NCBI RefSeq assembly: GCF_900105065.1
Contig: NZ_LT629749.1
Coordinates: 1,550,001 to 1,614,000, forward strand
Direction of reading: 5' to 3'
Length of the DNA stretch: 64,000 nucleotides
Source of the DNA: Friedmanniella luteola
Lineage (GTDB): Bacteria; Actinomycetota; Actinomycetes; Propionibacteriales; Propionibacteriaceae
A model generated the notes under the pieces. That model did no database searches. It saw only the letters and a program-made list of their open reading frames with translations, and was not told the DNA's origin. The position numbers and the translations under genes are program-made. Below, piece after piece: positions 39,557 to 59,479 of the stretch (its first letter is position 1; every line of letters begins with the position of its first letter).

Positions 39557-39568
39557 GAACACCTGTTC
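39557..39568. promoter_or_regulatory. LexA box upstream of recA
   Basis: GAACACCTGTTC fits GAAC-N4-GTTC exactly, flanked by C and G. It lies 141 bp before the recA ATG and should repress a distal recA promoter until LexA cleaves itself. Confidence 0.9.
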
Positions 39569-39708: not shown

Positions 39709-40758
39709 ATGATGGCGACCAACGACCGCGAGAAGGCGCTGGAGACAGCACTCGCCCAGATCGACAAGAACTACGGCAAGGGCTCGGTGATGCGGCTGGG
39801 CGACAACGTCCGCGTACCGCTGGAGACGATCCCCACCGGCTCGATCGCGCTGGACCTCGCGCTCGGCATCGGCGGGCTGCCGCGGGGCCGGGTCGTGGAG
39901 ATCTACGGCCCGGAGTCCAGCGGCAAGACGACCGTCGCGCTGCACGCCATCGCCAACGCCCAGGCCGGCGGCGGCATCTGCGCCTTCATCGACGCCGAGC
40001 ACGCGCTCGACCCCGACTACGCCGCCAAGCTGGGGGTCGACACCGACTCGCTGCTGGTCAGCCAGCCCGACAACGGCGAGCAGGCGCTGGAGATCGCGGA
40101 CATGCTGGTCCGCTCGGGCGCCCTGGCGCTGATCGTCATCGACTCGGTGGCCGCCCTGACGCCCCGCGCCGAGATCGAGGGCGAGATGGGCGACAGCCAC
40201 GTCGGCCTGCAGGCCCGGCTGATGAGCCAGGCGCTGCGGAAGATGACCGGCGCGCTCAGCAACTCCAACACCACCGCCATCTTCATCAACCAGCTGCGCG
40301 AGAAGATCGGCGTGATGTTCGGCTCGCCCGAGACCACCACCGGTGGTCGCGCGCTCAAGTTCTACTCCTCGATCCGGCTCGACGTGCGTCGTATCGAGAC
40401 CCTCAAGGACGGCCAGGAAATGGTCGGCAACCGGACCCGTGTGAAGGTCGTCAAGAACAAGGTCGCGCCGCCGTTCAAGCAGGCCGAGTTCGACATTCTC
40501 TACGGCAAGGGAATCAGCCGGGAGGGCAGCCTCATCGACCTCGGCGTCGAGGCCGGCATCATCCGCAAGGCCGGCGCCTGGTTCACCTACGACGCCGACC
40601 AGCTCGGCCAGGGCCGGGAGAACGCCCGCGGCTACCTGATCAGCAACCCCGACCTCGCCAACGAGCTCGAGAAGAAGATCAAGGAGAAGATGGGCATCGG
40701 TCCGCAGCTCGACGTCCCGGCGGGCGTCGACCCCGTCACCGGTGAGGTGGAGTTCTGA
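39709..40758 (+). CDS. recA: Recombinase RecA
   Basis: 349 aa from 39709 (348 from the adjacent ATG at 39712). Walker [15 protein letters not shown] near residue 67, [19 protein letters not shown] (Walker B and loop L1) and the L2/core [20 protein letters not shown] are intact; no intein. Forms filaments on single-stranded DNA, drives strand exchange and triggers LexA self-cleavage. Upstream 212 bp contains a LexA box, a PafBC-type promoter and two DnaA-box-like 9-mers (39575-39583, 39605-39613). recX follows, its conserved frame beginning within the recA stop region. Confidence 0.98.
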
Positions 40759-57516: not shown

Positions 57517-58353
57517 TCAGAGCTTGCGGAGGACCGCGACGACCTTGCCCAGGATCGAGGCGTGGTTGCCGTCGATCGGGTCGTAGGCGGGGTTGTGCGG
57601 CATCAGCCACACCTGGCCGTCGCGCCGCTTGAACGTCTTGACCGTCGCCTCGTCGTTCAGCAGGGCCGCCACGATGTCCCCGTTCTCGGCGGTCGGCTGC
57701 TGACGCACCACCACCCAGTCGCGGTCGCAGATGGCGGCGTCGATCATCGAGTCTCCGCGGACCTCGAGGAGGAACATGGTGCCCTGGCCGACGAGCTGGT
57801 GAGGGAGGGCGAACACGTCCTCCACCCGCTCCTCGGCGAGGATCGGGCCGCCGGCGGCGATCCGTCCCAGCACGGGCACGTGCACCGGGGCCGGGTAGGC
57901 GTCGCCGCGACCGGTGTCGTCGACCTCCGCCTCGGCCAGCACGGGGCGCGCGGCGCCCTCGGCCGGGACGGCCGGACGGCTGTCGGCCTCGCCGGGCAGC
58001 AGCACCTCGAGGGCCCGGGGACGGTTGGGGTCGCGCCGCAGGAAGCCCTTCTGCTCCAGGGTCTTCAGCTGGTGGGCGACGCTCGAGGAGCTGGCCAGGC
58101 CGACCGCCTCGCCCATCTCGCGGATGCTGGGCGGGTAGCCGCGGCTGTCCACGGCCTCCTTGATGACCTCGAGGATCCGCCGCTGGCGCGGCGTGAGGCC
58201 GTGTGCGTCGGCGGGCCCGTCGGGCAGCGACCGGACCGTGCCGCTGGCCCCGAGCTGCGCCTCGACCTCGGCGGCGCTGGGTCGGCCGCGCTTGCGGGCC
58301 GGGCGGCCCGGCGCGAGGTCGGCGGAGGAGGTGGTGTCGTCACGGTCTGCCAT
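57517..58353 (-). CDS. lexA: SOS repressor LexA
   Basis: 278 aa. N-terminal winged helix ([20 protein letters not shown], then [20 protein letters not shown]) and C-terminal S24 peptidase domain. Cleavage site Ala-Gly in [13 protein letters not shown]; catalytic S202 ([13 protein letters not shown]) and K239 ([11 protein letters not shown]), 37 residues apart as in other LexA proteins. The ~50-residue acidic/basic N-terminal extension and an ~30-residue Pro/Ala linker are typical of actinobacterial forms. ATG at 58353 is supported by a leaderless promoter. Represses SOS genes, including itself. Confidence 0.97.
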
Positions 58354-58360
58354 GCGGCTG

Positions 58361-58389
58361 AATCTAGGGAAGGCCCGCGGTGAAATCAA
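58361..58389 (-). promoter_or_regulatory. lexA promoter (TTGATT, 17 bp, TAGATT), leaderless
   Basis: Minus strand TTGATT (58389-58384) and TAGATT (58366-58361) with 17-bp spacing; the lexA ATG follows after 7 nt. The -35 overlaps a LexA box, so LexA blocks polymerase binding. Confidence 0.75.
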
Positions 58390-58399
58390 ACACCTGTTC
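58388..58399. promoter_or_regulatory. LexA box at the lexA promoter
   Basis: AAACACCTGTTC, one mismatch from GAAC-N4-GTTC. Its core ACACCTGTTC is the same as in the recA box. Overlaps the lexA -35 by two bases. Confidence 0.8.
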
Positions 58400-58514
58400 G
58401 AGCGTGTCGCGACCGCGTCCGAGCGGTCCGCGGCGGCGACGCCCGAGAACTGTCAGTGGTCCCTGGTGAGGTGAGGACATGAGCACGACGACGGCGAACT
58501 CTCGACCCGAGGTC

Positions 58515-58526
58515 GAACACGCGTTC
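58515..58526. promoter_or_regulatory. LexA box upstream of the SOS membrane gene promoter
   Basis: GAACACGCGTTC, a perfect GAAC-N4-GTTC, 8 bp upstream of the -35 (58535). Confidence 0.85.
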
Positions 58527-58534
58527 GCATGTGC

Positions 58535-58563
58535 TTGGCAGCCGCCGTCTGGTGCGGTACAAA
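58535..58563 (+). promoter_or_regulatory. SOS membrane gene promoter (TTGGCA, 17 bp, TACAAA)
   Basis: TTGGCA (58535-58540) and TACAAA (58558-58563) with exactly 17 bp. The predicted start (about 58570) lies within a LexA box. Flanked by LexA boxes on both sides, so tight repression is expected. Confidence 0.75.
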
Positions 58564-58565
58564 TC

Positions 58566-58593
58566 AAACACACGTTCTATCGAACGTCTGTTC
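58566..58593. promoter_or_regulatory. Two tandem LexA boxes over the SOS gene start site
   Basis: AAACACACGTTC (58566-58577, one mismatch) and GAACGTCTGTTC (58582-58593, perfect). Centres are 16 bp apart, so two dimers would sit close to one and a half helical turns from each other. Confidence 0.85.
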
Positions 58594-58616
58594 GACTTCT
58601 CCTGAGGAGCTTGACC

Positions 58617-58997
58617 ATGGACGTCACCACCCTCGAGGCGCCCCAGGGTGCCACGGCCGCCGGGTACCGCGCGACCGCTCGCCCGACGTCGCCCACCCGG
58701 GCGCCGGGACGTCCGCGGCGCCGGACCGGACGGGGCACCGGCCCCCAGGCCCGGCCCGCGCGTCCGCTGGCCGGCGGCACCCGGGTGCTGCGTCCGCAGG
58801 CCTGCGCCGTCGACGCGCCCGCGGCCCCGGCCGTCGCGTCCGCCGGCTGGCGGCTGACCGAGCGCGGGATCGCGCTGGTGCTGGTGACGGCCCTGCTGAT
58901 CGTCACCGCTGCGGTCACCGTGGTCGGGCTCACCGCCCTCCGCGTCACCGGCGAGCGCTACGCCGACGCCGGCCGGACGGTCCTCGTCCAGCCCTGA
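58617..58997 (+). CDS. Small LexA-controlled membrane protein, possible cell-division inhibitor
   Basis: 126 aa. Residues 1-80 are basic, Pro/Arg-rich and cytosolic; one membrane segment IALVLVTALLIVTAAVTVVG (about 89-108); a short outside tail ERYADAGRTVLVQP. ATG chosen because GAGGAGC precedes it and the frame upstream crosses LexA boxes. In other Actinobacteria the gene divergent from lexA encodes an SOS cell-division inhibitor (ChiZ/Rv2719c, DivS). This protein has the position and regulation but no LysM domain and no obvious similarity, so an inhibitor role is an inference from context. Confidence 0.75.
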   Translation: MDVTTLEAPQGATAAGYRATARPTSPTRAPGRPRRRTGRGTGPQARPARPLAGGTRVLRPQACAVDAPAAPAVASAGWRLTERGIALVLVTALLIVTAAVTVVGLTALRVTGERYADAGRTVLVQP

Positions 58998-59059: not shown

Positions 59060-59479
59060 GTGAGCACCGAGGCGCCGGCCCGCCCGTTCCGGGCAGCCCG
59101 TGGCGTCGCCCAGCTCGCCGGCGTCGCTGCCTTCGGGGTCACGCTCAGCGCGCTGTACGCGGGCACCGGCGTCGGCCTCCCGTGCCCCTTCCGGATGGCG
59201 ACCGGCTGGGAGTGCCCCCTCTGCGGCGGCACCCGGCTCGGGAGCGCCCTGCTGCACGGCGACCTCGTCGCCGCCTTCGCCTACAACCCGGTCGTGCTGG
59301 TCGGCCTGGTCGTCCTCGCCGTCCTGGGGGTGCTGTGGAGCGTCGAGGCCCTCGGTGGCCCCGCCGTCCGGCTCCCCGCCCGGGCGGCGGCGGGTCTGAT
59401 CCGTGTGCGCCCCACCCGGTGGCTGCTGCTGGGTCTCCTGGGCGCCACCGTCTTCGTCGTCCTGCGCAACCTGCTCTGA
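59060..59479 (+). CDS. DUF2752-family membrane protein
   Basis: 139 aa. Signature CPFRMATGWECPLCGGTRLG near residues 40-59 with paired cysteines, followed by helices LVAAFAYNPVVLVGLVVLAV and WLLLGLLGATVFVVLRNLL. Integral membrane family of unknown function, common in Actinobacteria and Bacteroidetes. GTG start preceded by GAATGGCCGG; a CAGAAT -10-like element ends 6 nt upstream, suggesting a leaderless transcript. No link to the SOS or nucleotide-reductase neighbours is evident. Confidence 0.88.
   Translation: MSTEAPARPFRAARGVAQLAGVAAFGVTLSALYAGTGVGLPCPFRMATGWECPLCGGTRLGSALLHGDLVAAFAYNPVVLVGLVVLAVLGVLWSVEALGGPAVRLPARAAAGLIRVRPTRWLLLGLLGATVFVVLRNLL

Follow-up and report, generated by a model that had tools for sequence, protein, structure and literature searches.

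Organization of the lexA-divergent locus

The window, a 64,000-nucleotide stretch of the Friedmanniella luteola genome, encodes a small protein of 126 amino acids that is transcribed divergently from the SOS repressor gene lexA (Table 1). The original prediction had described this arrangement as an ORF for a basic tail and one membrane segment beside lexA, driven by a TTGGCA-17-TACAAA promoter with three LexA boxes. Each of these elements was recovered: the neighbor by its match to the LexA family model, the tail and membrane segment by hydropathy and a structure model, the promoter in the sequence, and the boxes by pattern search, two of them exact to GAACN4GTTC and one with a single mismatch. 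Downstream, a gene encoding a DUF2752 protein starts at position 59060, 62 bp beyond the ORF. An alternative ATG at position 58479 would lengthen the frame to 172 aa; since this codon lies 5' of the promoter and no start occurs at the equivalent place in the closest relative, the 126-aa start was preferred.

Table 1. Features of the divergent lexA locus, in window coordinates (residue numbers for parts of the protein placed by model or orientation).
Feature	Position	Strand	Evidence or remark
lexA, SOS repressor, 278 aa, divergent neighbor	57517..58353	-	TIGR00498, 6.8e-73; Peptidase_S24 and LexA_DNA_bind
LexA box AAACACCTGTTC, one mismatch, ahead of lexA itself	58388..58399	.	pattern search
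LexA box 1 GAACACGCGTTC, exact to GAACN4GTTC, 5' of the -35	58515..58526	.	pattern search
Promoter TTGGCA (58535-58540), 17 bp, TACAAA (58558-58563), sigma-70-type	58535..58563	+	sequence
LexA box 2 AAACACACGTTC, one mismatch, directly after the -10	58566..58577	.	pattern search
LexA box 3 GAACGTCTGTTC, exact, 16 bp after box 2	58582..58593	.	pattern search
Ribosome-binding site GAGGAG	58604..58609	+	sequence; comparable site ahead of many homologues' starts
LysM-less ChiZ-type protein, 126 aa	58617..58997	+	ATG 58617, stop 58997
Disordered basic tail	residues 1-78		predicted model
RLTERG juxtamembrane motif, residues 79-84	58851..58868	+	L80, R83, G84 invariant; common to LysM-bearing relatives
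Membrane helix, about residues 85-105	58869..58931	+	hydropathy 2.87; model helix 82-119
Short outer helix and tail	residues 106-126		putative orientation

The tail is rich in arginine and proline and carries a net charge of +10 before the helix, after which about 21 residues remain to the C-terminus. In the structure model (mean pLDDT 69.2) the tail is unstructured and is followed by the single helix, with values of 92-98 over the block of residues 81-110. The C-terminus would lie outside, leaving the arginine-rich tail in the cytoplasm. Among 33 aligned members of the host's GTDB family, the Propionibacteriaceae, M1, L80, R83 and G84 never vary, and T81, A86 and V110 rarely do; a cysteine ahead of the helix was found in 46 of 76 family members. 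Homologues across the family range from 81 to 267 aa, with starts chosen automatically. No solved structure matched the family profile at E <= 1. Searches against Pfam and NCBIfam returned no LysM; the few matches of single members, all to helix or proline-rich families without relation to it, were weak (0.0033 at best).

LexA operators

The promoter core is placed between boxes 1 and 2, and a lexA-proximal box of the type seen in the window is present in most of the loci inspected. The relaxed pattern, with up to one mismatch, shows no enrichment over the whole window (13 found, 14.05 expected); four of these 13 sites cluster inside 206 bp. Genome-wide, the exact GAACN4GTTC pattern occurs 38 times, versus 8 for a reversed control pattern. 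An exact box, GAACACCTGTTC, is also located at window positions 39557-39568, about 140 bp before recA (39709-40758), as expected if this pattern is the operator of the LexA of the host genome.

The spacing of the three boxes (51 and 16 bp) recurs in 15 of 20 promoters of the same genus, allowing at most four mismatches over the three boxes together. When 51 was replaced by other values from 46 to 56, none of the 20 promoters fitted, and other values from 12 to 20 in place of 16 gave between zero and three. The five promoters that lack the three-box fit each retain two correctly spaced boxes. In the promoters of this genus the -35 element lies right behind box 1 and the -10 element right ahead of box 2, and CTTG and TACAAA-like elements take equivalent positions in most of them. 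Over the family, a LexA box ([GA]AACN4GTT[CT]) lies within 150 nt of the automatically chosen start codon in 72 of 76 homologues, versus 1 of 76 for a control pattern. A three-box operator with base-exact spacing in most promoters of the genus suggests that the gene is tightly repressed.

Conservation of the reading frame

As the original prediction required, the frame is conserved among relatives. Homologues were detected in all 20 same-genus genomes searched (E <= 1.5e-5), and in 17 of these the surrounding locus of about 3.3 kb also contains lexA (in one case by a partial match). In another genome (G007) lexA is about 5.4 kb from the homologue, and in two (G008, G015) it was absent from the stretch of DNA examined around the homologue. 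Between the two closest genomes (G000 and G018) dN/dS is 0.107/0.493 in frame and exceeds 2 in both shifted frames; the ratio comes to about 0.22 for the whole frame and to 0.18 for its core. The 126-aa frame is under purifying selection. The ten loci found in a homologue scan of named genomes all carry the name Propionibacteriaceae, Microlunatus or Propioniferax, the latter two being genera assigned to Propionibacteriaceae.

Strong matches to LexA itself are unevenly distributed in the family. None of five sampled genomes of one group (code g4: G022, G069, G088, G103, G116) has a strong LexA; a search at 1e-8 gave no match in four of them and a weak match in G088. The same applies to six of eight sampled genomes of a second group (code g14: G032, G077, G109, G122, G132, G141), which show only weak S24-peptidase matches and a very long branch in the LexA tree, while LexA is present in the other two (G094, G147). 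LexA may have been lost or replaced in g4 and in most of the sampled g14 genomes.

Distribution of LysM

The absence of LysM, noted in the original prediction for this protein, extends through the family loci examined: none of the 33 aligned members matches PF01476 at E <= 0.1. In other families of the class, a LysM protein encoded upstream of lexA was detected in 76 of 90 genomes (E<3e-3; 75 at 1e-3) and in 33 of 37 families, in a non-random sample (best lexA matches, then spread over families; 84 of the 90 loci with at least 800 nt of flank) and with a LysM profile built from 54 of the same 90 loci, the host's family excluded. These proteins nearly always combine a basic tail, the RLT.RG motif and one membrane helix, and are thus of the ChiZ type. 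PF01476 matches all 37 other-family representatives, themselves picked with the LysM profile. The same profile matched none of 106 lexA-upstream regions from the Propionibacteriaceae (103 with at least 800 nt) and, once seven weak lexA matches were set aside, none of 99 (96 with at least 800 nt), the best score being 6.2 bits. The 99 regions include 89 of the 104 family genomes with lexA; a further genome (G020, locus L034), which encodes the same helix core without LysM, was left out of the count.

Among the 14 other-family genomes without LysM, four have less than 800 nt of flank and one (G159) is cut off before a LysM could be visible; in three from family f22 and four others nothing was recognized. 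At two loci of family f21, L245 (G292) and L251 (G302), the product of the divergent gene has a basic tail, RLT.RG and a helix and lacks LysM, and a third genome of that family (G214) has the LysM; the pair apparently represents an independent loss.

Two other explanations for the missing module were rejected. Neither a frameshift nor a downstream LysM remnant was seen; the DUF2752 gene follows after only 62 bp, and in the 99 regions no score with the LysM profile exceeded 6.2 bits. Nor was a LysM protein seen to have moved under the control of an exact LexA box, the four LysM matches of the genome not being beside such boxes (nearest about 5 kb away).

In a LexA tree built by a quick method, with nine no-LysM labels set by hand, 82 of the 84 rows from other families lie together on the same side of a starred branch, the exceptions being the two f20 rows. 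The LysM label requires seven changes on this tree, and the interior of the Propionibacteriaceae is poorly resolved. Owing to these two rows, the seven changes and the poor resolution, the claim of a single loss for the family rests on taxonomy and distribution; LysM would have been lost early in this GTDB family rather than gained elsewhere.

A membrane anchor shared with LysM-bearing proteins

The original prediction held that the protein looks unrelated to the known genes in this position. This view is not supported, as the protein has the RLT.RG motif and the helix in common with the LysM-bearing genes that occupy this position in other families. A core profile from LysM-less family members, many of them collected via the LT.RG motif, had the LysM ORF as its top match in 69 of 76 LysM-bearing loci, each with about 27 ORFs to choose from. 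When reversed, the profile also selected the LysM ORF in 33 of 76 loci (never below 1e-3, best 8.9 bits), so that helix composition contributes to the result. Matches below 1e-3 were obtained in 31 of 90 other-family loci, versus 0 of 90 for the reversed profile; 30 of these were on the LysM ORF, and the remaining one was in a locus with a truncated end. Profile-profile comparison of the full alignments gave 89% probability over 33 columns. With LysM cut out and the comparison confined to sequences with the motif (33 of 33 from the family, 34 of 37 from other families), the probability was 94.5% and the score 35.2, versus 15.0 for the reversed profile; none of 20 column shuffles scored above 10.6. 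Homology between the anchors of LysM-less and LysM-bearing proteins is therefore probable from these profile comparisons, over a short stretch of about 30 residues.

Within the Propionibacteriaceae the core profile matched 76 of the 99 regions (E<6e-3). Of the 23 negative regions at this threshold, three have short flanks, and another is that of G007, whose gene is more distant from lexA. Several core-negative loci among those inspected contain a tail-plus-helix ORF of different sequence, which indicates that the anchor does not occur throughout the family, whose members have in places diverged beyond the motif.

Several groups show variants of this arrangement. Five of the six loci coded g34 (L138, L149, L153, L154, L162, L175) have a tail-plus-helix ORF with a cysteine in the tail and without RLT.RG, and four of these ORFs end in GDPAWAHV plus a few residues; in L138 no such ORF was detected upstream of lexA, and the boxes are kept. 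At loci L127, L134 and L137 (code g7) about 950-1040 bp separate lexA from the gene with its LexA boxes, versus the usual few hundred, as if by an insertion between the two genes. LysM-bearing proteins at loci of other families (e.g., L079, L083 and L088, code f2) carry the tail motif VRACSG or VRGCSG, which resembles the R.C of many LysM-less tails.

Comparison with known SOS division inhibitors

The closest counterparts are ChiZ (Rv2719c) of Mycobacterium and the other lexA-divergent LysM proteins, which likewise lie beside lexA behind LexA boxes and combine a basic tail with one helix. The window protein has the divergent position, the LexA box, and the basic tail with RLT.RG and one helix. 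Unlike ChiZ, it has neither the C-terminal LysM nor the outer linker and ends about 21 residues after the helix. The RLT.RG motif is common to the window protein and most non-mycobacterial LysM relatives; a mycobacterial-type ChiZ (L213) is without it. Judged by these sequence features, the protein is classified as a LysM-less variant of the ChiZ type rather than a full member.

By description, DivS of Corynebacterium glutamicum is also actinobacterial, located beside lexA, and has one membrane segment and no LysM (PMC6851548); it is reported to affect Z-ring formation (PMC3989709). The original prediction had contrasted the window protein with DivS by its missing LysM, a distinction that falls away, as DivS itself is reported to be without this module (PMC6851548). 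SosA of Staphylococcus aureus, likewise reported without LysM, is by description a small, SOS-induced protein encoded beside lexA, with one helix and an outer C-terminus, features that the window protein would share, its SOS induction being presumed. SosA is described as a protein of 77 aa that has almost no cytoplasmic tail, a helix spanning residues 10-30 and a longer outer segment; it reportedly shows that a helix and a short outer part can do the job without LysM (PMC6851548). In the window protein this short N-terminus is not found, and the helix begins at about residue 85, after the long basic tail. YneA of Bacillus subtilis resembles the window protein in its one helix and is described as an SOS division inhibitor whose helix targets FtsW; unlike the window protein, it has a LysM, which is reported to be required for inhibition (PMC13396833).

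Interpretation

The 126-aa protein is likely to descend from the ChiZ-type SOS division inhibitor of actinobacteria, with the LysM lost early in the GTDB family. Support for this reading comes from the same genomic place and the same anchor as in the LysM-bearing genes, with LysM in 0 of 99 versus 76 of 90 loci, and from the boxes in 72 of 76 homologues, the purifying selection, and the disordered tail with one helix. It is further supported by reports that the disordered N-terminal region and helix of ChiZ suffice for filamentation (PMC7355643) and that SosA works without LysM (PMC6851548); a review likewise states that the LysM of ChiZ does not appear necessary (PMC3989709). The reading is weakened by the shortness of the anchor, by a core profile partly collected with LT.RG, by the reversed profile that picks the LysM ORF in 33 of 76 loci, and by the 23 of 99 family loci without a match at 6e-3. 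Moreover, YneA without its LysM is reported to lose inhibition (PMC13396833), so that a LysM-less protein need not be an active one.

Induction by DNA damage and the arrest of division are well-motivated predictions of this ChiZ-type reading. LexA bound to the three boxes would keep the promoter closed until, upon DNA damage, RecA triggers the self-cleavage of LexA and the protein is produced. The protein would then insert so that its C-terminus lies outside and its disordered, arginine-rich tail in the cytoplasm. Guided by this basic tail and by the RLT.RG-helix anchor, it may reach FtsW, FtsQ or FtsI in the late divisome, where the helix and the short outer extension (RVT...Y) could stall septal wall synthesis until repair is complete, without a grip on peptidoglycan.

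An unlikely alternative is that division inhibition faded after the loss of LysM, leaving a degenerate membrane peptide that is still SOS-induced and whose role is weak or has changed, e.g., to membrane stress signalling. The inactivity of YneA minus LysM in B. subtilis (PMC13396833), the wide range of lengths in the family and the genomes without a recognizable homologue would agree with such decay, which is at odds with the low dN/dS, lowest in the core, with three invariant anchor residues in 33 members, and with the retention of the LexA operators, at exact spacing in most of the genus. It is improbable, too, that an SOS division inhibitor resembling SosA or DivS arose anew beside lexA, its basic juxtamembrane motif and helix being convergent rather than homologous to the ChiZ type. 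The alignable stretch is just 30-33 columns, LysM-less SOS inhibitors are reported from other bacteria (SosA, DivS; PMC6851548), and part of the family has tails and helices lacking RLT.RG; against convergence stands the fact that LysM-bearing sister families of the order show specific identity in RLT.RG, in the same position and orientation and with the same operators. Finally, a spurious ORF in GC-rich DNA, where chance ORFs are frequent, with a LexA promoter intended for another gene or function, for instance the DUF2752 gene 62 bp downstream, was rejected as very unlikely in view of codon-level selection confined to the 126-aa frame and of homologues in every same-genus genome searched.

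In the literature searched, no expression or phenotype data were found for the protein of this family, nor any paper that brought LexA and SOS together with LysM for propionibacteria, or LexA together with SOS for Microlunatus. Within that literature, the original description of the protein as undescribed thus holds for the Propionibacteriaceae; it does not hold beyond them, as LysM-less inhibitors beside lexA are already known in DivS and SosA, and the present protein adds another variant in its own family.

The ChiZ-type descendant would, on the best reading, keep the two parts reported as sufficient for ChiZ, namely the disordered basic tail and the helix. The requirement for LysM is disputed, since YneA is reported to need it (PMC13396833) and the tail and helix of ChiZ are reported to suffice (PMC7355643), and this disagreement makes a natural LysM-less family of interest. 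A family without LysM, in which the operators, the anchor motif and the helix are under selection, provides a natural experiment on the need for LysM and on the minimal unit. The chances are about even that the SOS division checkpoint of the whole family is a tail-plus-helix inhibitor without peptidoglycan binding, and that the essential unit of the ChiZ type is the arginine-rich tail with the RLT.RG-helix anchor, the LysM being optional and lost at least twice, in the Propionibacteriaceae and in G292 and G302.
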